IMG/VR virus record: IMGVR_UViG_3300022843_000001
Span: 62,001-126,000 of that record
Length of the DNA stretch: 64,000 bases
Strand: one strand, 5' to 3'
DNA from: a virus
The position numbers and the translations under genes were made by a program. Positions 8,298 to 63,900 of this stretch are shown in pieces; positions within the stretch are counted from its first letter, which is position 1, and each line of letters begins with the position of its first letter. Under the pieces are notes generated by a model. It had not been told where the DNA came from, did no database searches, and saw nothing but the letters and a program-made list of their open reading frames with translations.

Positions 8298-9166
8298 AAA
8301 AATTCTCCCACACACTCAATTAAGAGGCGCATTCTGTTAGTTATTAAATAATTGAGCACTTTGTTGTTGCCCTTCGCAATCTTCGCCATCTCGTCATCGT
8401 GAGTTTTATATATATTTTCCATAATGTCTTCTGGTGTATAAGATAAGTCTACAAGAGTTCGGTTTCTGATATAGTTGCGCCATTGGTCTTTGGTTAAATG
8501 CTTCTCTAATTCATCCTCGGTCATATTGGTAAGAGGTTCAATAAAAGATTTAAGAATTGGTTTCTGTCTACCACCTTCAACAAAGATCTTATCGTGACTG
8601 TGCATACTAGGAACACCATCCCCTTTGTCTCCACGTATAATATGTTCCCGCAGATATTTTACAGGGTCTGCATCCTTAACCTGCTTCTTTTGTACAGGGG
8701 CAAATTGTTTAACATTTGAATGGCGGTGCAACTGAATAAAGTCGTGATCACCAGAAACAATCATTACCTTTTCGCCTTGGCCAAATTCCTGAGTACGTTC
8801 GACAAGACCGCCAATTATATCGTCTGCCTCAGCACCTTCCACATAAACAACACTATATGGAAAATTGTTCTGTAGATCTTCGCGAACACCATTAATGATT
8901 TCGAATAGTTGTTCCCAATCAATTCCTTTTGCTACTGCCTTATCTCTGTCTTCTTTTCGTTTAAATTTGTATTCAGGAAAATAAGATCTGCGCCACGAGG
9001 TTGCGTCACAGCAGATTACCATGGTACCATATTCTTTGCGAAATTTAAGATTATACATTCTAATCGAATTTAAAATCTGGTGCTTGATGATATCGGCGCG
9101 GGTGTGATCGAGATTGTTTACCATAATATTTGCAATGGCGATTGCATTATAATCTATAAGTATCAC
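8294..9166 (-). CDS. rnh: RNase H / 5'-3' exonuclease (T4 Rnh, FEN1-like)
   Basis: The 290-residue protein is the T4-type RNase H, which removes RNA primers from lagging strands. The FEN/5'-nuclease acidic residues are visible: Asp in Leu-Ile-Asp-Tyr-Asn near 4, Asp near 54 (Cys-Cys-Asp-Ala), Glu-Ala-Asp-Asp near 111-114, and Ser-Gly-Asp-His-Asp-Phe near 138-143, followed by Gly-Asp-Lys-Gly-Asp-Gly-Val-Pro-Ser (helix-hairpin-helix side) near 180. Translation seems to begin at GTG (9166), with GGAAAA 5 bases upstream. It is driven by the early promoter at 9197-9225. Confidence 0.93.
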   Translation of the reverse strand: MILIDYNAIAIANIMVNNLDHTRADIIKHQILNSIRMYNLKFRKEYGTMVICCDATSWRRSYFPEYKFKRKEDRDKAVAKGIDWEQLFEIINGVREDLQNNFPYSVVYVEGAEADDIIGGLVERTQEFGQGEKVMIVSGDHDFIQLHRHSNVKQFAPVQKKQVKDADPVKYLREHIIRGDKGDGVPSMHSHDKIFVEGGRQKPILKSFIEPLTNMTEDELEKHLTKDQWRNYIRNRTLVDLSYTPEDIMENIYKTHDDEMAKIAKGNNKVLNYLITNRMRLLIECVGEFL

Positions 9167-9196
9167 TTGTTTTCCTATTTGTTAATCATTTCATGT

Positions 9197-9225
9197 ATTA
9201 TATCATGGCTAGATGCTGTTGTCAA
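9197..9225 (-). promoter_or_regulatory. Early sigma70 promoter for rnh
   Basis: TTGACA is replaced by TTGACA-equivalent TTGACA (9225-9220) with a 17-bp spacer and TATAAT (9202-9197) on the minus strand, 31 bases before the rnh start. No palindromic box is present upstream. Confidence 0.9.
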
Positions 9226-9226
9226 C

Positions 9227-9643
9227 CTATTTAAAAAGAGTTTTAACATGTTTTCGGTGAATTCGGCACCCAATGAAGGCATTATAATAATCTTCTGGCC
9301 TAAGCAACACCTCAAGATCAAATTGCAGCTTTGCCTCCATATAGTTCATTTCGCCTTTAGTCATGCAGAGCTCGAGTATCTCTCGTTGGAATCTGTCTTG
9401 TCCAAATTCCTCAACAAGAGACTTTACTAACTCACTGCTTCCATAATACTTTTGCCAGTCAGTTTCGACAATCTTTTTTCGTTTGCGGGTTTTGCCTTTG
9501 AGGGGTGGCAATTTACGGATAGACATAAGAGTCTTCTTGCCGACATATTTCATACCATTTGTGGTATCTGTTATGCAGTATATAAAACCTTTCCATTCAC
9601 CAATATCAGCAGAGGTAAACTCTTTACCTTTATAAATCCACAT
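9227..9643 (-). CDS. GIY-YIG-like nuclease domain protein
   Basis: The 138-residue protein has a GIY-YIG core near 17-37: Gly-Phe-Ile-Tyr, a Thr-Asn-Gly turn, and Lys-Tyr-Val-Gly-Lys-Lys. After this come a basic segment, Trp-Gln-Lys-Tyr-Tyr-Gly-Ser-Ser near 75-82 and a conserved Glu in Tyr-Met-Glu-Ala-Lys near 111. Free-standing proteins of this form are common in T4-like phages and are not obviously homing enzymes. The ATG lies inside the end of the 58-codon gene upstream (14-base overlap) and lacks a good ribosome site, so translational coupling is likely. Confidence 0.75.
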   Translation of the reverse strand: MWIYKGKEFTSADIGEWKGFIYCITDTTNGMKYVGKKTLMSIRKLPPLKGKTRKRKKIVETDWQKYYGSSELVKSLVEEFGQDRFQREILELCMTKGEMNYMEAKLQFDLEVLLRPEDYYNAFIGCRIHRKHVKTLFK

Positions 9644-9806
9644 TTTGAGGAATCCCTTTTTTGTGGTTATCCAGAATGCTGCAAGTCTGCATCTCACATT
9701 CCATGCCATCAATATGGGTACATCCATTTTCAAGATAGTAATCACAGGCCCATACTGGGTCGTTCGGGTGCAAAATTCTGCCTATGAACCCTTCATAATC
9801 AAACAT
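9630..9806 (-). CDS. Small hypothetical protein, late
   Basis: A 58-residue frame with four Cys and several His residues, possibly a small metal-binding protein. It has AGGAAA 8 bases before the ATG and a late promoter 25 bases upstream. Its 3' end overlaps the GIY-YIG-like gene. I do not recognise a family. Confidence 0.65.
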   Translation of the reverse strand: MFDYEGFIGRILHPNDPVWACDYYLENGCTHIDGMECEMQTCSILDNHKKGIPQNVDL

Positions 9807-9830
9807 AAAAATATTTCCTAATCAAACAAT

Positions 9831-9838
9831 TATTTATA
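9831..9838 (-). promoter_or_regulatory. Late promoter TATAAATA
   Basis: Exact TATAAATA on the minus strand, 25 bases upstream of the gene at 9630-9806, between it and nrdA. Confidence 0.7.
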
Positions 9839-9873
9839 TGTGTGGCCAAGGAAGACCACACATATAAATTATA

Positions 9874-10899
9874 TCAGCCCTCGCATGCTTCACAAGAGCC
9901 ACTTGATGCTTTTACCCCCGATTCAGATCGTATATAATACAAAGATTTTATGAAAGGATCTTTGAATGCCATTTCATGTATTTTTGAAATTACTTCTTCT
10001 TTCTCGTCAGCACTAAAAAATAAGTTAATAGATTGTGCCTGATCGATATGTCTTTGACGCGCCGATGCCAATCGAATAATCGATTCTTGGTTGATTTCAA
10101 ACGCCGTCTTGAAAACTTCTTTCTGGTGATCATCAAGCCATTCAACATCCTGAACTGAACCGTTATCATCTATAATAGCATTTATAGTCTTCGGATTAAA
10201 AACACCTTTCTCTTTCATAACTGCTATGAGTACCGGATTGATTCTGTCAACTTCGCCAGCACTAGTTCTTTGCACGTATGCATTTTTGTATATAGGTTCA
10301 ATTCCTTGAGATACAGAGCCACATAAAATTGCCGAGGACAAATTAGGGGCAATTGCCATGCGGTGAGTGTTACGCAAACCGTAACCAACGCACCATTCCG
10401 GTTCACCTAGGGTTTCTGCTAACCAACGGCTAGCACGCTCTGAAGCTGTTGCCAGTTGTTTAAAAATTGAGTTGTTGATCATATGCGCTTCCATACTTTC
10501 AAAAGCAATGTTTTTCTGTTGTAAATAAGTATGAAAACCTAATGTACCTAAACCTAACGCTCTACTCTTTTCTGTGAAGCGAACTGCCTTTTCTAATCCA
10601 CGAATCTTTTTGCCTTCTTGGATAAATTCTTCGGCCACGCAGTCAAGAAAAACGGTTGCGTCAAATATAACTTCGTCTGGGTCTTTCATATTATCATATT
10701 GAGATAGGTTGATTGACGAAAGAACACAAGTAAAAGTAACATCATCAAAGCCTTCTCCTGTATCACTAGAAGTTGCATTCAATGTAATTTCAGTACAATT
10801 GTGTACTAATATATCATTTGCAAAGAAGTTATGATTATTCTCTACTGTAAGATCAAACACCGCTTCTTTATTATCTAAATATTCTATTGTTAAACTCAT
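9874..10899 (-). CDS. nrdA: Split-intein C-half fused to NrdA C-terminal part
   Basis: The 341-residue precursor begins with a 34-residue intein C-part: Val-Phe-Asp-Leu-Thr-Val-Glu-Asn near 14-21 (block F) and Asn-Asp-Ile-Leu-Val-His-Asn (block G) ending at 34. The next residue is Cys, the +1 splicing nucleophile and also the thiyl-radical cysteine of class I ribonucleotide reductase (the Asn-Leu-Cys-x-Glu motif, rebuilt from the two halves). The remaining 307 residues are NrdA: Thr-Cys-Val-Leu-Ser-Ser-Ile-Asn-Leu (redox Cys) near 53-61 and the C-terminal redox pair Cys-Glu-Ala-Cys at 336-339. The start overlaps the HNH gene stop in ATGA. Active reductase requires trans-splicing with the product of 11724-12863. 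Confidence 0.95.
   Translation of the reverse strand: MSLTIEYLDNKEAVFDLTVENNHNFFANDILVHNCTEITLNATSSDTGEGFDDVTFTCVLSSINLSQYDNMKDPDEVIFDATVFLDCVAEEFIQEGKKIRGLEKAVRFTEKSRALGLGTLGFHTYLQQKNIAFESMEAHMINNSIFKQLATASERASRWLAETLGEPEWCVGYGLRNTHRMAIAPNLSSAILCGSVSQGIEPIYKNAYVQRTSAGEVDRINPVLIAVMKEKGVFNPKTINAIIDDNGSVQDVEWLDDHQKEVFKTAFEINQESIIRLASARQRHIDQAQSINLFFSADEKEEVISKIHEMAFKDPFIKSLYYIRSESGVKASSGSCEACEG
10798..10899 (-). other. Split-intein C-terminal fragment
   Basis: These 34 codons encode the C-intein, with its own ATG. The ending Phe-Ala-Asn-Asp-Ile-Leu-Val-His-Asn matches the NrdJ-1 type of split intein. The penultimate His and last Asn are those needed for cyclisation. Confidence 0.93.
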
Positions 10900-11654
10900 A
10901 TTTTCTTATTCCTATGATTATTGCCGTCAAGCAAGGTTAAATCTGTTATTTTAAATGTTTCTATTAGCAACGTTTGTATATTTTCGTTCCATACCGGTTC
11001 TCTATATTTTCCTTTCAAACTCTTAGGTAGCGGTTGACCATAGACTTCGACAAAGTATCTTTTAGTCATGGCCATACTCCATCTTCCATATTTTTTAAAT
11101 ATTATTTTACAGGCCTCGAGTATATCTTCATTTGATATACCAGTAAATCTTGGGTTTTTTTCACCAGTGACAGAAGCACCAGTTTTTAATTTCCATTCAT
11201 CCGATCTTTTCATTCCTACATGAAAAAACACCCATTTACCAGATAGTACATGTGGATGATCTTTTTTAACTCGACCAATTCGAACTCCAGTAATAGAATC
11301 TTTTACAATTAAAGTTCCGGTGTGTCGTTTCGAAACTTCTGCTGCAATGATCTTGCGAGCTGCAGAATACGCTCTAGATGATAATCTTTTTCCCTTTGAC
11401 ACAACTCTACCCATATTGATCAAAGCCTGGTTTGCTTTATATCTGCCCTGCCCTGTTGCTAATTTAGCGAGCAATACATGAGCAATCCAATGTTCTTTTT
11501 GTGTCAGAAGTATCATATTAAAACTTTCATCTGTACCGCCAAATGATCTTGGTAGTATGTGATGATTTTCGTATTTAAAATCGCGATCTTTTTTAGATCG
11601 ACCTAGGTTTCGTCTGCTTTCTATTAAATTATTGTACAAGTTCAGATAGTTCAT
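10896..11654 (-). CDS. HNH homing endonuclease between the nrdA halves
   Basis: The 252-residue protein has an HNH core near 29-60: Glu-Asn-His-His-Ile-Leu-Pro-Arg-Ser-Phe-Gly-Gly, then Asn46 and a His in Gln-Lys-Glu-His-Trp-Ile-Ala-His. The rest is basic with repeated Arg/Lys segments, probably for DNA binding. It is closely related to the HNH protein inside uvsW (51791-52639), which has the same Asn-His-His-Ile-Leu-Pro and Glu-His-x-x-Ala-His-Val-Leu-Leu blocks. It lies between the two intein halves, where it would spread the insertion by cutting intein-free nrdA. Its AGGA ribosome site is inside a hairpin arm (see 11661-11691). Confidence 0.92.
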   Translation of the reverse strand: MNYLNLYNNLIESRRNLGRSKKDRDFKYENHHILPRSFGGTDESFNMILLTQKEHWIAHVLLAKLATGQGRYKANQALINMGRVVSKGKRLSSRAYSAARKIIAAEVSKRHTGTLIVKDSITGVRIGRVKKDHPHVLSGKWVFFHVGMKRSDEWKLKTGASVTGEKNPRFTGISNEDILEACKIIFKKYGRWSMAMTKRYFVEVYGQPLPKSLKGKYREPVWNENIQTLLIETFKITDLTLLDGNNHRNKKI

Positions 11655-11660
11655 TTTTAA

Positions 11661-11691
11661 TCCTGTTTAGTACTATTTATACTAAACAGGA
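11661..11691 (-). promoter_or_regulatory. Hairpin with late promoter in loop; sequesters HNH ribosome site
   Basis: A perfect 12-bp stem with a 7-base loop. On the minus strand the second arm ends in the AGGA ribosome site, 6 bases before the HNH ATG. TATAAATA (11681-11674) spans the loop and its edges. Long transcripts can form the hairpin, whereas late transcripts starting just after the loop lack the first arm. This matches the control known for T4 I-TevI. Confidence 0.8.
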
Positions 11692-11723
11692 TTTCCAAAC
11701 ATAAAGATGTTAATGAATAGAGA

Positions 11724-12863
11724 TTACCCTATTACAAGTTCGTCATCTTCAAGCAATTCTTTCGCCATAACATATCCACGATTTTTTGTAAATATTTTAT
11801 GATCTGGAGTACATTTAATAGATTTTCCAGTTTCATCATCCGTGATTTTCATAATAGTAGCGTTAGGGTTTGTTTCCGCACCATCAGTAATTGTTTCCCA
11901 ATTGCCCAATTTATTCTCAACATCATACGACCAGATTTTCCAATCATCGAGATTATTGTTATAATGATTTTCAATGAAATGTTGCAAGGTACAAGATTTA
12001 ACACCAGAAACATCTCCTTTAACTGTTATAATAGTATCTCCAGTCATACATAAATTTGATGCATATACTTGCAGACCGCGATCCTTGTACATTGCTGGGC
12101 TTTGTCTGTTTACTTTATCAACAAAGAAGAAATATCCCTTACCTGTCAACATTTTAATCTTCAATGCTTTCTGATATCGGGCAACTGCATCTTCCTCACC
12201 TTTGTCTAAACGTTCGATAAAATCGTCACTTATATTCCAACCAACATTCACATCGTCAGGCATTGTTTCTACGTGCTGACACATCTCCCAAAAATCACCG
12301 CTTTCGATAGGAATATATCCTGCCCATGAACCCCGTCTAGTACTTCCTTGAGAAACGTCTCGAGACATCTGCACAAAGTCCTTGAATACAGGTACAACAC
12401 CACTTGCGGCGCCACCACCTTTGATATGCGTACCTCGTTCACGAATAGCGCCAAGATACGAACTTGTACCAAAACCGTTCTTTGAAAGGAGAGCACCTTC
12501 TTTCTGGGCTTCATAGAAATTATACACCGAATCACCAACGTAACTTCCAGAACACGATACAGGCATACCACGAGTCGTTCCCATATTTGCCATTACTGGT
12601 GTACTTGGAGCAAGAAAACCATTCCACATCAAATCGAAGAATTTAGTATTCCATTCTTCGCTCGATTCGCCCATGTGCTTCGAGGCGGTTTTTGCGATAC
12701 GTTCAAACGTCGACCGAACATCCGGTTCAGATTCCGTTTGATATTTTTCCTTAAACATTTGCCACCCAGGAGTGGTGTAGTAATCGGGAATTCTGCCAGA
12801 CGCCTGTAACTTCTTACGTTCCCTGCCCAGCTCTTTATAAATTGATACGTGTTCTTCTACCAT
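11724..12863 (-). CDS. nrdA: NrdA N-terminal part fused to split-intein N-half
   Basis: The 379-residue precursor holds about 271 residues of ribonucleotide reductase large subunit and then a 108-residue intein N-part. The reductase part has Pro-Val-Ser-Cys-Ser-Gly-Ser (first redox Cys) near 101-107 and ends Ala-Ser-Asn-Leu, directly before the missing radical Cys. It has no room for the usual N-terminal ATP cone. The intein part starts with Cys272 (Cys-Met-Thr-Gly-Asp-Thr, block A) and has Cys-Thr-Pro-Asp-His (block B) near 351-355. The frame ends soon after, so this is a true split intein. The ATG at 12863 overlaps the nrdB stop in TAATG, which sets the start. Confidence 0.95.
   Translation of the reverse strand: MVEEHVSIYKELGRERKKLQASGRIPDYYTTPGWQMFKEKYQTESEPDVRSTFERIAKTASKHMGESSEEWNTKFFDLMWNGFLAPSTPVMANMGTTRGMPVSCSGSYVGDSVYNFYEAQKEGALLSKNGFGTSSYLGAIRERGTHIKGGGAASGVVPVFKDFVQMSRDVSQGSTRRGSWAGYIPIESGDFWEMCQHVETMPDDVNVGWNISDDFIERLDKGEEDAVARYQKALKIKMLTGKGYFFFVDKVNRQSPAMYKDRGLQVYASNLCMTGDTIITVKGDVSGVKSCTLQHFIENHYNNNLDDWKIWSYDVENKLGNWETITDGAETNPNATIMKITDDETGKSIKCTPDHKIFTKNRGYVMAKELLEDDELVIG
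11727..12050 (-). other. Split-intein N-terminal fragment
   Basis: These 108 codons run from the catalytic Cys to the stop. Block A (Cys-Met-Thr-Gly-Asp-Thr-Ile-Ile) and block B (Lys-Cys-Thr-Pro-Asp-His) are intact. The end, Thr-Lys-Asn-Arg-Gly-Tyr-Val, is very like NrdJ-1. Confidence 0.93.
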
Positions 12864-13864
12864 TATACTTGTCCCCATATGAAGTTAGTTTCTTTCCAGT
12901 CTCTGTTATATTCTGATCCAGTTGATATAAAGAAGTCATGAAGCTTTGATGAATTGATATTACGATAAAACCATTTCTCTATAGGATTGTATGTAGGTTT
13001 ATATAGCTTTTGATAACCAAGTTGTTCAAGACACAAATCAATTCTTGACTGTACGAACATGTCTAGCTGATGTTCTGTAATGCCACGAATGTTTCCTTTC
13101 TCAAAAATCATCTTGATAATTTCTTTTTCATGCTCGTAAGTTTTTGTAGCTACCTTAATAATATCCTTCTCTAAAGTTTCAAGTTCTTTCTTGGTTAAAT
13201 TGGCTTCTCTCATTAAGGTCTTGAACAACCAAGCATCTGCCATTGCGTGTAGATTTTCATCCTTAACTGAGAAGTTAATACCAGCAATTAGGTTTGTCAG
13301 TTTGTTTTTGCCTTCGGCTTGAAAGTGTTTTAGAAAGGCGAAGTTTGCATATAACACAGCACCTTCAACAAAGGAAAACGCGCCAAGACTTCTTAACAAA
13401 TCCATGTTGTTGTCACTTGGTGACAACAACACATCTCCAATCCACGATATACGATCACTCAATACTTTGTTTTCTTTGTAAGAGTTGTAAAATTCGTTGG
13501 TTGCAAGACCAAGAATTTCGTTTATCTTTGAATAGAAAGGTGCATGAACATTTATTTCCACATAGGCGAACATATTTGCCATTCGCTGAATGTCTGGCCG
13601 AGGAAATGATTTTGCAACACGAGCTGACCAATATTCATTGCCAACATTTAGTTCATATTCTGTGAACAGTTGTAGTACAGTTGTAACGCCGTGTAGTTCT
13701 GCTTCGTCGAGGTTGTTCTTGAGATCATGAAGATCTTTCTCCATCGATATCTCGCGTTCTGTCCATAATATATCTTGTTGTTCTTCCGAAAATGCTATTG
13801 CTTCAGGATAGTCAAACGTATATTCGGATTTTTTGGTTCTTATTCTTGGTAATTCCTCGCTCAT
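12863..13864 (-). CDS. nrdB: Ribonucleotide reductase small subunit NrdB
   Basis: The 333-residue protein is the radical-bearing beta subunit of class I ribonucleotide reductase, partner of the spliced NrdA. Iron ligands are visible in order: Glu in Leu-Asn-Val-Gly-Asn-Glu-Tyr-Trp near 78, Glu-Ile-Asn-Val-His near 104-108 with a Tyr four residues later, Phe-Val-Glu-Gly near 166, and Lys-Asp-Glu-Asn-Leu-His near 202-207. It is shorter than T4 NrdB (about 388). The early promoter at 13906-13934 lies 42 bases upstream, and nrdA follows with a TAATG overlap. Confidence 0.95.
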   Translation of the reverse strand: MSEELPRIRTKKSEYTFDYPEAIAFSEEQQDILWTEREISMEKDLHDLKNNLDEAELHGVTTVLQLFTEYELNVGNEYWSARVAKSFPRPDIQRMANMFAYVEINVHAPFYSKINEILGLATNEFYNSYKENKVLSDRISWIGDVLLSPSDNNMDLLRSLGAFSFVEGAVLYANFAFLKHFQAEGKNKLTNLIAGINFSVKDENLHAMADAWLFKTLMREANLTKKELETLEKDIIKVATKTYEHEKEIIKMIFEKGNIRGITEHQLDMFVQSRIDLCLEQLGYQKLYKPTYNPIEKWFYRNINSSKLHDFFISTGSEYNRDWKETNFIWGQV

Positions 13865-13905
13865 TCGTTGTATTCCTATAGTTCAATGTTTAATTTCGTA
13901 AGACT

Positions 13906-13934
13906 ATTATACATCATTCAGGTGCACTTGTCAA
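13906..13934 (-). promoter_or_regulatory. Early sigma70 promoter for nrdB-nrdA
   Basis: TTGACA (13934-13929), a 17-bp spacer and TATAAT (13911-13906). It is divergent from the plus-strand promoter at 13958-13986, with 23 bp between the two -35 boxes. Confidence 0.9.
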
Positions 13935-13957
13935 CCCAAAGCTAGAATTATTTGGTA

Positions 13958-13986
13958 TTGACAAATAGTTGGTTATGTGTTATAAT
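13958..13986 (+). promoter_or_regulatory. Plus-strand sigma70 promoter of conserved element, copy 1
   Basis: TTGACA, 17 bp, TATAAT on the plus strand, opposite to all surrounding genes. Initiation is expected near 13993. Confidence 0.88.
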
Positions 13987-13992
13987 AACTAA

Positions 13993-14103
13993 GTTGTGCC
14001 GGGGCAGGTTGGTATACACAATATACTAATTTATGCTGGCAGAGTTATTTATAAGACTGGATTACCGAGATAGGGGGGAATCAACGGTAATCCAGTATTT
14101 ATT
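13993..14103 (+). ncRNA. Candidate small plus-strand RNA, copy 1
   Basis: From the expected start, a G-rich leader (GTGCCGGGGCAGGTTGG) is followed by a spacer and a perfect 12-bp hairpin (14056-14067 with 14085-14096) then ATTTATTT, which could end the transcript after about 105 bases. Positions 13976-14019 match 50495-50538 at 42 of 44 bases. No convincing ribosome site or shared reading frame is present. The 3' end is antisense to the tail of the holin-like gene. Confidence 0.6.
14046..14053 (-). promoter_or_regulatory. Possible late promoter TATAAATA
   Basis: An exact TATAAATA on the minus strand, but 180 bases from the nearest downstream start (nrdB) and inside the plus-strand RNA candidate. 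It might give late nrdB transcription or be a chance match. Confidence 0.4.
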
Positions 14104-15756: not shown

Positions 15757-16101
15757 TTATCTTAAATTAAATGGGGTTTTAACACCACCAATCGCTGATT
15801 TGCCTTTTTTAGACCCTTTGCTTTTCTTAGTTGTAGTAGGTGATTCTTTTTCTACTTCAATACTAACAACATCGTCAACTATCACATCGTCAACTATCAC
15901 ATCGTCAACTATCACATCGTCAACTATCACATCGTCAACTATCACACAGGTTTCTTCATGGCCGCCTATCTTGGCAACACCATTCCATGCTGCACACTGT
16001 TCTTCAGTTAACTTTGCGCCTTTTAACTTCTCGCCACGTTTGGTGTAATAACCACTGACCTTGGCAATAGCGTTTTTGAATTGTCCTCTTTTTCTTTCCA
16101 T
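15757..16101 (-). CDS. Hypothetical protein with Val-Ile-Val-Asp-Asp repeats
   Basis: The 114-residue protein has a basic N-terminal domain of about 50 residues, then five tandem Val-Ile-Val-Asp-Asp repeats near 52-77, and a Lys/Ser/Thr-rich C-terminal tail. The repeats come from five exact 15-bp units (15871-15945), so copy number can change without breaking the frame. A GATAAATA late-like site lies 27 bases upstream of the start. A virion or cell-surface linker role is possible but unsupported. Confidence 0.7.
   Translation of the reverse strand: MERKRGQFKNAIAKVSGYYTKRGEKLKGAKLTEEQCAAWNGVAKIGGHEETCVIVDDVIVDDVIVDDVIVDDVIVDDVVSIEVEKESPTTTKKSKGSKKGKSAIGGVKTPFNLR
15871..15945. repeat. Five tandem 15-bp units
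   Basis: Five exact copies of ATCGTCAACTATCAC. In-frame in the gene at 15757-16101. Confidence 0.97.
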
Positions 16102-36626: not shown

Positions 36627-36699
36627 ATTTCTCATTATGTAATTGAAGCACCATTATATCACAAATGGTGCTTCGTGTCAACCATTTTTAATGTTATTT
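36627..36699. repeat. 73-bp promoter repeat, copy A (copy B 37090-37161)
   Basis: The two copies differ by one substitution and one T in a T-run. Each contains an early promoter and the ATGAGAAAT leader of the gene downstream. Confidence 0.95.
36653..36681 (-). promoter_or_regulatory. Early sigma70 promoter, copy A
   Basis: TTGACA (36681-36676), 17 bp, TATAAT (36658-36653). Confidence 0.9.
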
Positions 36700-37089: not shown

Positions 37090-37161
37090 ATTTCTCATTT
37101 TGTAATTGAAGCACCATTATATCACAAATGGTGCTTCGTGTCAACCATTTTAATGTTATTT
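37090..37161. repeat. 72-bp promoter repeat, copy B
   Basis: Partner of 36627-36699, described there. Confidence 0.95.
37116..37144 (-). promoter_or_regulatory. Early sigma70 promoter, copy B
   Basis: TTGACA (37144-37139), 17 bp, TATAAT (37121-37116). Confidence 0.9.
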
Positions 37162-50545: not shown

Positions 50546-50902
50546 CTAATGTAAGGTCAACCCTTCGGGATTGCCCTCCTGCGGTTCTTCTTCCTGCAAG
50601 GCATCCTTTAATTCCTGTCCTACGATTTTACTTAATGCATCCACGTAAAAGTTACACATTTCTGCATTAGGCTCTGCTATAACAATTCCAGTCTTCATAA
50701 TTGTCACGGTGTTGTTCTCTGCAAAGTTCATGAAGTCCTTCATATAATAAGTATACTTATCTTCTTCTGAATTGCTTTTAACTACTTCAAGACTGTCTTG
50801 CATTTCAATATAGACATCATTTTGGAATGTAACATTACCTACAATAAACTCTCCAGTGGCAAGTTTTATATACAATAATTGTACTTCATTTATAGCTCTC
50901 AT
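50546..50902 (-). CDS. LSm-like small protein, second copy
   Basis: The 118-residue protein has a beta-rich first half with Leu-Ala-Thr-Gly-Glu-Phe-Ile-Val-Gly-Asn near 13-22 and a conserved Ala-Glu-Pro-Asn-Ala-Glu near 75-80, the same pattern as the protein at 33789-34088. The last about 20 residues are Glu/Gly/Pro-rich. It may be a homolog with an Sm-like fold. It overlaps the uvsW C-terminal gene in ATGA. Confidence 0.7.
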   Translation of the reverse strand: MRAINEVQLLYIKLATGEFIVGNVTFQNDVYIEMQDSLEVVKSNSEEDKYTYYMKDFMNFAENNTVTIMKTGIVIAEPNAEMCNFYVDALSKIVGQELKDALQEEEPQEGNPEGLTLH

Positions 50903-51813
50903 TTTAAAGGTACCTCATAAACTTTATAATCAAATTCTTGTTGACTGTATATCTTAATTCTTTCTGCTGCATGATTTAATGCATAATTTTTATGTGATTT
51001 CCAATGCAAGTCGTCTGCAATGTCATACACGGTTGTAATTCTTCCATCATCAGATTTTCTCAAACCACGTCCTATCGATTGTAAAATCTTAATTTGGCTC
51101 TTCGACGGAGATGCAAAGACAATATTGTGTAGGTTCCTAATATTTATACCTGTAGAAAATACACCTAAACTAGCAACAATAATCGCATTCTTTTGTGTTT
51201 CAGTTAGTTTCCGTACATACTCTCTGGTATCGGCATCAGTCTTACCAGACACATAAAAGATCTTTCTTCTTTCGTGAGCATGCTTTTCTATAAGAGCATG
51301 TAGTGGTATACCATGCTTTTCCACAAACTGAAACAAGATTAAAGTATTACCATCTAGATCAAGAGCAAGATTTTTGATAAAGTTGTTACGTTTTTCGTGC
51401 CGAACAATAAAATCAATCTCGTCAGGATACTTCATCTTCTTAACTAACTTACATTCTTCATCTCTAAACTTCAACAATAGAATGTTAATATTCAGGCCAG
51501 CGAGAGTTCCATCATCAATAAGTTTCTTGGTTGTTGTCACGTAATGTGCTTTACCAAAGTGACCTTCAAGCTGCAATCTATGGCTCTTTGCAGAGCTGTC
51601 TTTGATAGTACCGGTAGTGCCAAATCTATATGCTGCTTCTGATAAGTTGGACATAATAGAGGTCAGAGACTTTGCTGTAGCGAGGTGCGCTTCATCCACT
51701 ACGACACAACCATACCTTTCAAACCAACTCTTATTGAGCTTGTATATAGACTGCCATGTTGATATTACAATTCTGGGTGTTGTAGTTTTTCTAGTTATTT
51801 TTTTTATTTTCAT
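50899..51813 (-). CDS. uvsW: UvsW helicase, C-terminal piece
   Basis: The 304-residue piece begins with about 9 unrelated residues (Met-Lys-Ile-Lys-Lys-Ile-Thr-Arg-Lys) and then enters UvsW at Thr-Thr-Thr-Pro-Arg-Ile-Val-Ile-Ser-Thr-Trp. It carries the Asp-Glu-Ala-His box (40-43), Gly-Thr-Thr-Gly-Thr near 66-70 (motif III), and the whole second RecA domain with Ser-Ile-Gly-Arg-Gly-Leu-Arg near 262-268 (motif VI). It has no intein C-terminal blocks and no His-Asn before the junction. Without Walker A (in the other piece) it cannot be active alone. The ATG lies within the end of the HNH gene and lacks a ribosome site. Confidence 0.88.
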   Translation of the reverse strand: MKIKKITRKTTTPRIVISTWQSIYKLNKSWFERYGCVVVDEAHLATAKSLTSIMSNLSEAAYRFGTTGTIKDSSAKSHRLQLEGHFGKAHYVTTTKKLIDDGTLAGLNINILLLKFRDEECKLVKKMKYPDEIDFIVRHEKRNNFIKNLALDLDGNTLILFQFVEKHGIPLHALIEKHAHERRKIFYVSGKTDADTREYVRKLTETQKNAIIVASLGVFSTGINIRNLHNIVFASPSKSQIKILQSIGRGLRKSDDGRITTVYDIADDLHWKSHKNYALNHAAERIKIYSQQEFDYKVYEVPLK

Positions 51814-52639
51814 GATATGATCTTATATGTTTAGGGATGCAATGTGCCGCCATAGCTCTATCACAATATTCACATTTGATTTTGGGTTTTGATCGACCCT
51901 TCGCTTTAGTTGTAGTACCCTTATTGTGACCTTGTTGGATCCAATCATCTCCGGGCTTTTCGTTTGCTTGAGTACGTTCATAGGTTACAGTATTATACCA
52001 ACACTTTCTACCTTTCATATCAGGCATAGAATCAAGTTTTTTCTGAACAAAAACAGGATTTTGCATAGGATTGTTAGTATTCCACACATTCGTTTTATTT
52101 TTAGTACGAGTTTCTATAGACTTCTTATGAGTTTCCTCATCATTGAAGGGACTGTGCTCTTTCATAAACTCGCGTTGATTTTCTCTTTTCCCCGAATTCC
52201 ATTCAGCAACCATCATCTCAGATTGAGTGATGGCGTCCCTTCGCCCATCTTTGTAACTAGCTTTCATATCTTCGGACATCATGGCTGCAAGGTCTCTTTT
52301 TAGACTTTCGTATACCCTATTGGTTACACGACTTTCTGTGTTATTTGATTTCATAGACATTGCTGTATATGCCCTTAACATAGAATATCGACCTTTGTCC
52401 GTTATAAATTTAGGCAACAGCACGTGTGCTAAATAATGTTCCCTTGCTGTTAATCTTACCATATTATTTTTTGCATTACAACCACCAAGAGATTTAGGTA
52501 ATATGTGATGGTTTTCGGTGTAATTGTCTCTATCTACAGGATTAGCTAACCGGTTAGCTATTATATTACAATACCAATTATAATATTTGTTTATGTTCTT
52601 GCCCTTGTAGCCATTTATCGTCAATTTCGTGAGATTCAT
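51791..52639 (-). CDS. HNH homing endonuclease inside uvsW
   Basis: The 282-residue protein has Glu-Asn-His-His-Ile-Leu-Pro-Lys-Ser-Leu-Gly-Gly near 42-53, an Asn near 59 and Arg-Glu-His-Tyr-Leu-Ala-His-Val-Leu-Leu near 66-75, the same HNH block as the nrdA-associated enzyme. The C-terminus has a zinc finger Cys-Glu-Tyr-Cys...His-x-x-x-x-x-His near 254-275. It overlaps the tail of the uvsW N-piece by 62 bases and the C-piece by 23 bases, so it is placed exactly in the break of uvsW. The true start may be an internal codon nearer to the HNH block. Confidence 0.9.
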   Translation of the reverse strand: MNLTKLTINGYKGKNINKYYNWYCNIIANRLANPVDRDNYTENHHILPKSLGGCNAKNNMVRLTAREHYLAHVLLPKFITDKGRYSMLRAYTAMSMKSNNTESRVTNRVYESLKRDLAAMMSEDMKASYKDGRRDAITQSEMMVAEWNSGKRENQREFMKEHSPFNDEETHKKSIETRTKNKTNVWNTNNPMQNPVFVQKKLDSMPDMKGRKCWYNTVTYERTQANEKPGDDWIQQGHNKGTTTKAKGRSKPKIKCEYCDRAMAAHCIPKHIRSYHENKKNN

Positions 52640-53390
52640 TTAGTTCGTCTGCTCTTATTTTACATTTCTTATTGTTATTTATAATATCTATAAACGCATT
52701 GCCTAAAAATCTATACAATTTACCATCAATCGTCTCTATTTCTATGTATACTTTTGTGGGTGGTACCTTATCTTGCCCCGAGTATATAATATGGCAAAGA
52801 TCATCAGACATAAACCCGTCGTCAAATTCTGAATAATCCGCGAAGTCACTATTCATTTGTTTTACAAGTGAGGTTGTTGGCACTACAATTAGTATATCTT
52901 TTTCGTTGTTGTCAAGATAATAACGAAGTATAGAATATATAATAAAAGATTTGCCAGACGCAGTTGGAGATATAACCAAAGAGTTTCTATTCTCTAGGCA
53001 ATGCTCTACCGCGGCTAATTGATAGTCGTGATGCTTTATAGGTGCGCCGCGAGAAGTAAAAGTGCAGTCATTGATCCATTCCATATCATAAGAGTGTAGA
53101 GTCCCAGGCATGCCATAATAGTTATTGTGCTCTACTTCGATCTTGTAATCTCGAGTTTTGGCAAATTCTTCAACATAAGTATAGAGCCCAATAGGCAGCT
53201 GTCTATCTCTCGAGTTAAAAATGCGAATGTAGCCGTCCCATTGCTTGTTCTTATATGAGGGCATGAACTGATATCCCTCAGGTTGAAAAGCAAAGAAGTC
53301 AGTTAACTCATTGAGTATAGAAGGCTCGGCATCAACATGCAAAAACGCTTGGTTCTTCTTTTTTAAGGTTATTGTATTCCATTCTTTCAT
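52578..53390 (-). CDS. uvsW: UvsW helicase, N-terminal piece with intein-like tail
   Basis: The 270-residue piece is UvsW up to about residue 208: an N-terminal wedge domain, His-Asp-Tyr-Gln near 121-124 (Q motif), Walker A Ser-Pro-Thr-Ala-Ser-Gly-Lys-Ser at 141-148 and Val-Val-Pro-Thr-Thr-Ser-Leu near 169-175 (motif Ia). Residues 209-270 are unlike UvsW. They read Val-Tyr-Ile-Glu-Ile-Glu-Thr-Ile-Asp-Gly-Lys and Lys-Ile-Arg-Ala-Asp-Glu-Leu, which resembles the last part of a Hint (intein N) domain, but the initial Cys, block A and the block B Thr-x-x-His are absent. I start it at 53390, two bases after the uvsY stop. Confidence 0.88.
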   Translation of the reverse strand: MKEWNTITLKKKNQAFLHVDAEPSILNELTDFFAFQPEGYQFMPSYKNKQWDGYIRIFNSRDRQLPIGLYTYVEEFAKTRDYKIEVEHNNYYGMPGTLHSYDMEWINDCTFTSRGAPIKHHDYQLAAVEHCLENRNSLVISPTASGKSFIIYSILRYYLDNNEKDILIVVPTTSLVKQMNSDFADYSEFDDGFMSDDLCHIIYSGQDKVPPTKVYIEIETIDGKLYRFLGNAFIDIINNNKKCKIRADELNESHEIDDKWLQGQEHKQIL

Positions 53391-53391
53391 A

Positions 53392-53838
53392 TCACATCCC
53401 ACTTGTAAATTGACGCCATTTTATAGCATTGCCGATAGTTTGGTGTCTCCATTTTATCGACTCCATTATCTCTTTCAGTACATCTACCACGTTTTTGGTG
53501 TATTCGATTCTTGCTAGTGCTGATTGTATGTGTTCATCCGCATCATAAAAATAATGCATCTCACCTTTCATGATCTTTAAACCTTGGAGTGCATCGTAAT
53601 CCCAGCCCAGCTTATCTATTGCATCTTTGGACATTTTGCCATTATACCATAGATATTTATTTTTTAGGAGTACTTGTAGTTCTGCTTCGCGCTTTTTGAG
53701 AGTAAGTCTATACATCGACCAGATCTCTATATATTTTGAATGAAGCTTAGCACCTTGGATAGATGCTGCGTCTAGATTCATCTCGTCGATGGGAGAATCG
53801 ACTTTCCACATAGCATAGATTGCTTCTAATGTTATCAT
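53392..53838 (-). CDS. uvsY: Recombination mediator UvsY
   Basis: The 148-residue all-helical protein loads UvsX on gp32-coated DNA. It matches T4 UvsY (137) in pattern: Ile-Tyr-Ala-Met-Trp near 7-11, Lys-Leu-His-Ser-Lys-Tyr near 31-36, Leu-Leu-Lys-Asn-Lys-Tyr-Leu-Trp-Tyr-Asn-Gly-Lys near 57-68 and Trp-Arg-x-Phe near 141 at the end. As in T4 it lies directly before uvsW and after gene 23-side genes. A late promoter is 34 bases upstream. Confidence 0.9.
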   Translation of the reverse strand: MITLEAIYAMWKVDSPIDEMNLDAASIQGAKLHSKYIEIWSMYRLTLKKREAELQVLLKNKYLWYNGKMSKDAIDKLGWDYDALQGLKIMKGEMHYFYDADEHIQSALARIEYTKNVVDVLKEIMESIKWRHQTIGNAIKWRQFTSGM

Positions 53839-53883: not shown

Positions 53884-54393
53884 CTATAATATCTTGTAGT
53901 AGCTGTAATTAAACGTGACGTTTGCAGTCATATATTCAACGTCAGATGCAGTTGCATCAAAAGCAACGGCAGATAAATCTACTGGAAAAGCATCAATAAA
54001 CTGTATTTGCTTATTAACATTATTTGATGAAGACAATATTGATAATGTCATATCTCGGGTTTTCTTTATGTTGTCACTTTCAACAACCTGTGCCAGAATC
54101 CAATCATGTATTTCTTGATAGTTAATTAGATTCTCGTCAATAAGAAACGTGCAGTCAAATGGACTGTAATCAATCTTATCACCATGAAAGCCTAGTTGTC
54201 TTACAGGTGTTGCAAAGTTAGCGGGTGGTAGAGAAATAGTGGGCAATGTTGCATTTTGAATAAGAAACTGAGAGTTCTTAAATTTAAGATTGTCTATAAG
54301 TAAATGAAATCCCGTAGGCGACAAATAGGAAACGTCTTCCATCATAGAAACTTCGTCTGATGAAGATATGTTGGTTTTAATATTATACGGCAT
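53884..54393 (-). CDS. Tail-tube-like virion protein
   Basis: The 169-residue protein has Leu-Pro-Thr-Ile-Ser-Leu-Pro near 46-52, Phe-His-Gly-Asp-Lys-Ile near 68, Phe-Asp-Cys-Thr-Phe-Leu-Ile-Asp-Glu-Asn-Leu near 78-88 and an aromatic C-terminus. This order resembles the tail tube protein family (gp19, at 60137-60664), so it may be a tube paralog, tail terminator or baseplate-tube connector. It has a late promoter 27 bases upstream. Confidence 0.65.
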   Translation of the reverse strand: MPYNIKTNISSSDEVSMMEDVSYLSPTGFHLLIDNLKFKNSQFLIQNATLPTISLPPANFATPVRQLGFHGDKIDYSPFDCTFLIDENLINYQEIHDWILAQVVESDNIKKTRDMTLSILSSSNNVNKQIQFIDAFPVDLSAVAFDATASDVEYMTANVTFNYSYYKIL

Positions 54394-60136: not shown

Positions 60137-60664
60137 CTAGCTTGTTGAACTGGATTCCCAATATTGGATTTGTAATTCAACTGTAAATTCTTCAATTGTG
60201 TTTTCACTATCATAGTTAACATCGATAGCAGAAACATTTGAAGGCCAACATCCACGGATATTGTAAGTCTTAGTAACAACTCCTTCTTTGTTTAGTTGTT
60301 CAACAACCATATCAGCTGAATAATCGGTAGGATTGCTCAAACCTGTATTATTGTTATGTTGGTTGATACCATTCATCCATTGCTCAAACGAGTTACGAAC
60401 ACTCATCTCAACATCATTGATAACCGTCAAGGTCCAAGGTTCGAAAGTTCTATCGCCTGCAATTTGCAGTTGACGACCACGAAAAGGAATCATGATTGGT
60501 GCAATGATTGATGCTGGAAGTGAAGCACCTTTGATAAGGAAAGATGCAAGTTCGGGGTCACCGCCCGCATATCCTGGAAAGTTACAAGTAACTCGGAACA
60601 TATTAGCCCGAGCACCGCCACCTTTTAATTTCGACTTGAAGTCATCTACGCCTAAAGTTGCCAT
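60137..60664 (-). CDS. 19: Tail tube protein gp19
   Basis: The 175-residue protein matches the T4 tube subunit (163) with Asn-Met-Phe-Arg-Val near 21-25, Leu-Ile-Lys-Gly-Ala-Ser-Leu-Pro near 43-50, Pro-Phe-Arg-Gly-Arg near 60-64 and Ile-Gln-Tyr-Trp-Glu at the end. Its ATG overlaps the stop of the HNH gene in TAATG, with AGGAGAG upstream, so the mobile gene now sits inside the gp18-gp19 unit without breaking either. Confidence 0.95.
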   Translation of the reverse strand: MATLGVDDFKSKLKGGGARANMFRVTCNFPGYAGGDPELASFLIKGASLPASIIAPIMIPFRGRQLQIAGDRTFEPWTLTVINDVEMSVRNSFEQWMNGINQHNNNTGLSNPTDYSADMVVEQLNKEGVVTKTYNIRGCWPSNVSAIDVNYDSENTIEEFTVELQIQYWESSSTS

Positions 60665-63166: not shown

Positions 63167-63174
63167 TATTTATA
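63167..63174 (-). promoter_or_regulatory. Late promoter TATAAATA for gene 18
   Basis: Exact match, 60 bases upstream of gene 18, at the 3' end of the mobile endonuclease gene. Confidence 0.75.
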
Positions 63175-63826
63175 TCAAATGGTATCTGCGAATCTTTGAT
63201 TTAGATATTCCAGTGAGACGCCAAGCCTCAGATATAGAACTATACAGCTTATTGTCTATTGATACTTCTTTAGATTGTGTTTGTATATAGCCGTTCTCAT
63301 ATAACATTTTTAAACTCTTTGACATTTGATCTCTAACACGAATATCACTCATGGCTTTAATCTTTTTGTCGACAGTTTCGCTACTCTGTTTTACCCCCAT
63401 CTTGCTTTTTGATATCTTGCTTTTTGTTTCTTCAGATTTCCTTTTTCCGGTATTAGCAATCTTCAGCTTGAGTTTAAATGATTCAGATTTAGGCTTTCTT
63501 GCACCTTCTAATGCTGATTTCTCACTGATAGCAAAATTATCCGTTTTATTGAGGAATTTTAAATTTTCAACGACTCTCATTCGTTTTAAAACTACATTTT
63601 CCCATGCTATAGCATTTGAACTATTATCAAAGATTCTTCTTATATTGATAATGTCAGGTTCGCCATATTCCATTCTGAATGATTTGACGTGCTTAGAAGA
63701 AGTAAAGTAAGATACCCATAAATCATCGGGGGTACAGTTTTTGGCATATCTTACCCCATAATAATATTTGGCATATTTCGACCATCCTATAACATAAGTA
63801 TAAGGTTTATAACTAATGGTAGACAT
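63170..63826 (-). CDS. GIY-YIG-like homing endonuclease with NUMOD repeats
   Basis: The 218-residue protein has a degenerate GIY-YIG start (Tyr-Thr-Tyr-Val-Ile-Gly-Trp...Tyr-Tyr-Gly-Val-Arg-Tyr-Ala near 7-26), then a NUMOD3-type basic region near 118-155 (Ala-Arg-Lys-Pro-Lys-Ser-Glu, Gly-Lys-Arg-Lys-Ser-Glu-Glu-Thr-Lys) and a C-terminal helix-turn-helix near 195-215 (Ser-Ile-Ser-Glu-Ala-Trp-Arg-Leu-Thr-Gly-Ile-Ser-Lys). I prefer the ATG at 63826 with GAGGT upstream; a longer start at 63865 is possible. It lies between gene 17 and gene 18 and has a late promoter. Confidence 0.82.
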   Translation of the reverse strand: MSTISYKPYTYVIGWSKYAKYYYGVRYAKNCTPDDLWVSYFTSSKHVKSFRMEYGEPDIINIRRIFDNSSNAIAWENVVLKRMRVVENLKFLNKTDNFAISEKSALEGARKPKSESFKLKLKIANTGKRKSEETKSKISKSKMGVKQSSETVDKKIKAMSDIRVRDQMSKSLKMLYENGYIQTQSKEVSIDNKLYSSISEAWRLTGISKSKIRRYHLI

Positions 63827-63892
63827 GATAGCTAATACCTCATTTGAGTTTATAGTAAGATTCATAATACGATTATCTTCAATTTACCATTA

Positions 63893-63900
63893 TATTTATA
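63893..63900 (-). promoter_or_regulatory. Late promoter TATAAATA
   Basis: Exact match between the end of the probable gene 17 and the GIY-YIG-like gene. Confidence 0.7.

Follow-up and report, generated by a model that had tools for sequence, protein, structure and literature searches.

The stretch of DNA analysed here (the window; 64,000 nt, positions 62,001-126,000 of record IMGVR_UViG_3300022843_000001) comes from an uncultivated T4-like phage and carries a class I ribonucleotide reductase (RNR) gene, nrdA, that is broken into two pieces around a gene for an HNH homing endonuclease. Analysis of open reading frames (ORFs) places the genes on the minus strand in the order nrdB, nrdA N-half, a 69-bp gap, HNH gene and nrdA C-half, with the break falling directly before the codon of the thiyl-radical cysteine (SNL|CTE). 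The features of the locus are the following, catalytic residues being given in E. coli numbering.

12863-13864, minus strand: putative nrdB-like small subunit, by its ORF and its resemblance to R2 sequences, directly upstream of the nrdA N-half
11724-12863, minus strand: nrdA N-half (N-extein plus N-intein), matching Pfam PF00317/PF02867 and TIGR02510
12051-12863, minus strand: N-extein, ending in VYASNL and carrying the equivalents of C225 and N437
11727-12050, minus strand: N-intein of 108 residues with Cys1 and a TPDH block B, matching TIGR01445 and NrdJ-1 in the PDB; the stop codon (11724-11726) follows directly
11659-11693, minus strand: RNA hairpin (stem of 15 bp) in which the Shine-Dalgarno sequence of the HNH gene, AGGA (11661-11664), is base-paired, fold z -5.1 to -6.7
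11674-11681, minus strand: T4-type late promoter sequence TATAAATA in the hairpin loop, transcripts probably starting at about 11668
10896-11654, minus strand: free-standing HNH homing endonuclease gene, 252 residues, phrog_655 E 2e-28
9874-10899, minus strand: nrdA C-half (C-intein plus C-extein), its start overlapping the HNH stop as ATGA
10798-10899, minus strand: C-intein of 34 residues, ending in NHNFFANDILVHN, above the TIGR01443 cut-off
9874-10797, minus strand: C-extein, starting with CTEI (C439, E441), followed by C462, a Tyr-Tyr pair and a CEAC tail
10798-12050, minus strand: whole insert, 1,253 bp, absent from the intact nrdA of the relatives L007-L010

The N-half probably starts at the ATG at 12863, which overlaps the nrdB stop (TAATG), within a longer ORF that reaches 12878; an earlier, sequence-only reading of this DNA had implied the same start, and the overlap fits it. 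The C-half begins at 10899, 824 nt past the N-half stop.

The outer ends of the insert are the two parts of a natural split intein. The N-part (CMTGDT...DELVIG) opens with Cys1, contains blocks A and B (the latter CTPDH) and ends in a stop codon, while the C-part (MSLTIEY...NDILVHN) has its own start, a penultimate His, a terminal Asn and Cys at +1 (ILVHN|C), and continues into CTEITLNA... of the C-extein. All of the splice residues announced by the sequence-only reading are therefore in place. The N-half scores 26.0 bits against NCBIfam TIGR01445 (cut-off 24.5) and the C-half 35.9 bits against TIGR01443 (cut-off 15.6); both halves also match Pfam Intein_splicing, at scores short of the full-length cut-off, as would be expected of halves. 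Of the structures in the PDB, that of the NrdJ-1 split intein (8ubs) matches best, at E 1e-18; NrdJ-1 shares the C-terminal stretch HNFFANDILVH but comes from a class II RNR, whereas that of the window is class I; the +1 residue of NrdJ-1 is Ser, that of the window Cys. The proposed 108- and 34-residue halves thus pass intein models at both ends, and the +1 nucleophile is, as had been claimed, the thiyl-radical cysteine itself, since the insert ends at ILVHN|CTEI and relatives are continuous at the same codon. From their sequence, the two halves would be expected to ligate their exteins in trans.

A sequencing error, or a pseudogene, might conceal one continuous intein gene, an outcome that the sequence-only reading had named as fatal to it, and the HNH ORF does by chance share the reading frame of the N-half. 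The present results already refute this explanation. Two other contigs in IMG/VR match the 3,005-bp locus exactly (over about 11.15 kb, one is 100% and the other 99.87% identical), and four relatives (L007-L010; three with 91-92% and one with 83-86% amino acid identity) have an nrdA that is uninterrupted at exactly this codon, so that the break is no error. Nor is there a hidden continuous gene, because the 1,253-bp insert is not a multiple of 3 and an extra stop codon lies between the N-half and the HNH ORF, making two stops in all. The isolated phage TG1 (see below) has the identical layout. Purifying selection on the window NrdA is strong, with ratios of non-synonymous to synonymous substitution (dN/dS) against L007 of about 0.05 and 0.03, synonymous changes being far above amino acid changes. 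The gene evolves no faster than its intact relative (18 and 20 unique amino acid changes, respectively, out of 583), and all class I catalytic positions (C225, N437, C439, E441, C462, Y730, Y731, C754, C759) are found across the two halves. Restoration of nrdA by RNA splicing of a group I or group II intron deserves a thought, as phage RNR genes frequently hold group I introns (PMC3653736), but a search of positions 9000-14100 against Rfam gave no family match up to E = 1, and the ends of the insert encode intein motifs together with start and stop codons; we give an intron practically no credence.

A split NrdA need not be spliced to function. In Aeromonas phage Aeh1 an HNH gene likewise splits nrdA (nrdA-a/mobE/nrdA-b), and a hairpin and a late promoter govern the nuclease (PMC2988022), but the locus has no intein motifs, the protein is interrupted some 25 residues past the radical cysteine, and the halves work unspliced (PMC3653736). 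Because of this precedent, the statement of the sequence-only reading that no reductase is active until the two proteins splice can be put only as an expectation. The precedent also raises the alternative that the NrdA halves of the window assemble non-covalently and that the intein parts are relics, for which one might further cite uvsW of the same phage, split with a degenerate intein remnant only. We consider this improbable: the window has an intein where Aeh1 has none, its splice residues are intact and its intein models passed, whereas both Aeh1 and uvsW fail those models. Moreover, the break at the active-site cysteine, about 25 residues upstream of that in Aeh1, would burden an unspliced C-half with 34 additional residues in its catalytic centre.

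The uvsW locus is a second fractured gene (window 50899-53402), in which a UvsW-like helicase lies in two pieces around an HNH endonuclease.

52578-53402: uvsW N-half
51791-52639: HNH endonuclease, of the same family as that in nrdA
50899-51813: uvsW C-half

The end of the N-half resembles a truncated N-intein without Cys1, the C-half shows no C-intein, and neither half passes the intein models, while uvsW is intact in the relatives L110 and L111 (SGQDKNTKKRITITTWQ). By its sequence, this locus seems to be a fractured gene that has decayed and stayed in two pieces; the sequence-only reading had not described it.

The gene between the nrdA halves was correctly taken for a free-standing HNH homing gene, being a separate ORF (10896-11654) whose product matches homing endonuclease families of PHROG (phrog_655, E 2e-28; also phrog_10088 and phrog_12434) and Pfam HNH_5 at E 0.17 only. 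The ORF is intact and shows the His/Asn pattern. The protein comprises a head (about residues 25-66), a middle module (about 110-145) and, from about residue 165, a module discussed below; an AlphaFold model (8 rows; predicted local distance difference test score 56 overall, with the head and middle module alone usable) predicts a beta-beta-alpha head. Among 6,576 ORFs, a sample biased towards nrdA, the HNH enzymes at this site are set apart by the middle module (KDxxTGxxIG...HPxVLSG); similar stretches occur in other phage endonucleases, and we make no claim of site specificity for it.

Expression of the HNH gene appears to be controlled by the 69-bp gap in front of it. The gap contains a hairpin, AATCCTGTTTAGTATAAATAGTACTAAACAGGATT, with the AGGA Shine-Dalgarno sequence in its 3' arm and TATAAATA in its loop, and it is the sole hairpin in the window, among those with stems of at least 11 bp, to hold TATAAATA. 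This sequence occurs 23 times in the window against 8.0 expected, 19 of the 23 copies being on the coding strand and several lying 20-60 bases upstream of genes (e.g. portal, tail sheath). Its reading as a late promoter is supported by a gp55-type late sigma factor encoded in the same genome:

49796-50392, minus strand: gp55-type late sigma factor, phrog_234 E 5e-49

A late transcript starting at about 11668, as placed by the T4 rule, would retain the 3' arm only, which folds weakly. The arrangement is that of I-TevI, in which a stable hairpin sequesters the ribosome site and a late promoter yields late transcripts without the 5' arm (PMC2988022): the ribosome site of the HNH gene likewise lies in a stable hairpin, and the promoter is so placed that late mRNA would be unable to form it. 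The I-TevI scheme, however, stands in a group I intron, and that of the window between split-intein halves. Hairpin and late promoter recur in TG1 and in L012 with unrelated stem sequences. Across 17 non-redundant HNH and GIY-YIG genes at this nrdA site, the leader has a fold z below -3 in 13 and TATAAATA within 70 bases in nine, compared with 5% and 2%, respectively, of the leaders of 93 control genes in these loci. A separate 14-bp hairpin lies past the nrdA C-half (window 9832-9869), its 3' arm entering another TATAAATA (9831-9838), with a GIY-YIG-like gene (9227-9806 region) downstream.

To see how widespread such loci are, IMG/VR was scanned with both intein ends and the halves were paired by motif. 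Inteins as a rule insert at conserved sites (PMC2814812), and the search for NrdA intein pairs at the same insertion point, which had been suggested as a check, showed that IMG/VR has 34 or more different split inteins at precisely SNL|CxE. A few more lie at or near SNL|CxE, including two that are one codon later (KP13-7 and L259), and contiguous (cis) inteins also occupy the same codon (L015, L064, L076). Assigned by motif and inspection, the genes between the halves of 37 pairs were HNH (10), GIY-YIG (10) or other (four), the remaining 13 pairs having no nuclease. The cultured Yersinia phage vB_YenM_TG1 (KP202158) is broken at the same codon as the window, in the order N-intein, HNH gene (with a late promoter in a ribosome-site hairpin) and C-intein, and passes both intein models; its intein is about 40% and its HNH protein about 25% identical to those of the window, and its nrdA halves are annotated as separate RNR genes rather than as a split intein. 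Phage phiR1-RT is its twin with an intact nrdA (96.7% protein identity). In Klebsiella phage KP13-7, nrdA is divided into several pieces and accompanied by a GIY-YIG gene.

Some loci are more fragmented still. In KP13-7 (L103; 29849-36154) nrdA is in at least four pieces: a first break after KSCSQG is followed by a small HNH-like ORF, the split intein one codon past the catalytic cysteine (SNLC|C) has the GIY-YIG gene, and downstream lies another split-intein-like break with a further ORF. NrdA apparently also comes from more than two pieces in L013 (2839-5930), L094 (3858-5978) and L064 (134-2137), in each of which a further split intein lies upstream or downstream of that at the active site; the second break of L013 has a small nuclease-like ORF inside, and the middle piece of L094 bears intein halves at both ends.

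The histories of the inteins and their host genes are discordant. Over 528 pairs, intein identity correlates poorly with C-extein identity (r = 0.23); L012 and L138 have exteins that are 85% and inteins that are 36% identical, while the window and L135 share 39% in the exteins, 55% in the inteins and 57% over 182 residues of the HNH proteins. Nuclease type is unclustered on the intein tree (19 changes against a shuffled mean of 19.8). Because intein and extein histories disagree and nuclease types are scattered as if shuffled, the cassette would seem to have moved horizontally, with its nuclease separately gained, lost and exchanged.

The GIY-YIG enzymes of this site have in common an unannotated C-terminal stretch, EKNPxxSGxTDDEIL...PKSFSKxRFNG. 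A profile trained on these enzymes alone also matches HNH enzymes of the site (L135, L137, L138, L238/L244 and the window) and two cis inteins that carry HNH, L015 and L076. A rougher run of the same test, made earlier, did not find this module in RB16, K5, KEN37, PVA23, IG49, Aeh1 MobE or the uvsW HNH enzyme of the window. When all viral contigs of IMG/VR were scanned with only the module as query, 37 loci were confirmed; 36 of them are at the NrdA intein site, and the last lies in a cis intein that interrupts the class II enzyme NrdJ at its active-site NPC. Eighteen profile matches that a strict pairing pattern had flagged as off-site were inspected, and an N-intein or C-intein of the NrdA site adjoins 17 of them; inspection of L227 found neither motif beside the module. 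Among 50,697 phage records there were only 23 matches, all in nrdA regions (KP13-7, plus 22 nrdA genes from phages of Dickeya and Salmonella, two of which were inspected and have a cis intein starting at SSNL|C). This distribution argues for, but does not prove, a domain with which different nuclease heads recognise the DNA of RNR active-site codons. That phage homing enzymes shuffle their domains is a known general phenomenon (PMC10448857), and we think it rather likely that here an unannotated C-terminal domain directs unrelated nuclease heads to RNR catalytic-cysteine codons, with intein, module and nuclease as interchangeable parts of one gene drive at a single site.

Taken together, the locus is very probably a mobile split-intein cassette at the radical-cysteine codon of NrdA, with trans-splicing and late homing by the HNH enzyme. 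The split-intein halves form the outer ends of the cassette and the homing endonuclease gene its middle, and both NrdA fusions (NrdA-N::IntN and IntC::NrdA-C) would be made from one operon on early and middle transcripts. The intein halves would then associate and splice in trans, giving a seamless NrdA whose catalytic cysteine is the +1 residue. On these transcripts the hairpin would mask the HNH ribosome site, while late transcripts, beginning within the loop and lacking the 5' arm, would allow HNH protein to be made late. The enzyme would cut nrdA in co-infecting relatives that lack the intein, at the active-site codons or close to them, and the entire cassette would be copied into the cut gene during repair. 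The recognition module would tether the nuclease to the conserved active-site DNA, so that nuclease heads (HNH, GIY-YIG) could be swapped or lost while site and intein persist.

Several observations weigh against this reading. Besides the unspliced but functional NrdA of Aeh1 (PMC3653736), four of the 17 nuclease leaders have no hairpin, the intein tree has many weak branches, and the recognition module of the window HNH enzyme is diverged (32.8 bits, E 2e-8). In its rougher version the test did not find the module in the HNH enzymes of TG1, L012, L250 and L278, and the module is therefore not the sole route to the site. Alternatively, trans-splicing may work while the HNH gene is a passenger, its homing either lost or directed at a different target; nuclease loss is evidently common, as 13 of the 37 inteins at the site have none, and a diverged module would suit such a passenger. 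We hold this to be possible but unlikely, given that the HNH ORF is intact with its His/Asn pattern and predicted beta-beta-alpha head, that the regulatory hairpin and promoter are retained, and that the nearest HNH relative, that of L135, occupies the same site in a distant NrdA.

The sequence-only reading had assigned the locus to the fractured-gene type known from marine metagenomes. The combination of enzyme gene, split-intein halves and free-standing endonuclease stands, but the confinement to metagenomes does not, in view of the cultured phages TG1 (HNH) and KP13-7 (GIY-YIG). In the 2009 description of this class by Dassa and co-workers, control elements are reportedly brought in together with the endonuclease gene, and Vsr-like enzymes are said to occur at about half of the loci and so do not define the whole class. 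Fractured genes, nrdA among them, consist of a conserved enzyme gene interrupted by the two parts of a split intein, between which lies a separate endonuclease gene (Dassa et al., 2009, as cited in PMC3653736 and in PMC7090010); the window locus is a new member of this class, its enzyme being HNH (phrog_655) and not Vsr-like. Seven nrdA and two nrdJ genes interrupted by inteins are given for ocean data (PMC3653736) and an NrdA-2 intein is named (PMC7090010); a text search for the sequence letters of the NrdA-2 intein gave no match.

What the present analysis adds to the sequence-only reading is the hairpin and late promoter that would control the HNH gene, a picture of how large and how mobile the family is, and the recognition module. 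A known genomic oddity is thereby placed in a dense family, in which many phage lineages have split inteins at one catalytic codon and empty, intact, split, nuclease-bearing and nuclease-free states stand side by side. Since these states coexist, and TG1 and phiR1-RT form a cultured pair of occupied and empty sites, both the homing cycle and the way in which split inteins arose become directly testable. The RNR-specific module would be an example from nature of a single DNA-targeting domain at work with nucleases of different folds, and the family contains many uncharacterised split inteins on which protein engineering could draw.

Elsewhere in the window, another homing endonuclease gene (phrog_314; 63170-63865) lies directly upstream of the tail sheath gene and has its own TATAAATA at 63893-63900. 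Two tail-tube paralogues (phrog_45; 53884-54393 and 60137-60664) flank the head genes. Identical hairpins with 11-bp stems (GAAGCACCATTTGTGATATAATGGTGCTTC) occur at 36645-36674 and 37108-37137, 463 bases apart, and the ORF at 15757-16101 contains a perfect short repeat (VIVDDVIVDDVIVDD...) that may be a hypervariable or slippage-prone stretch.

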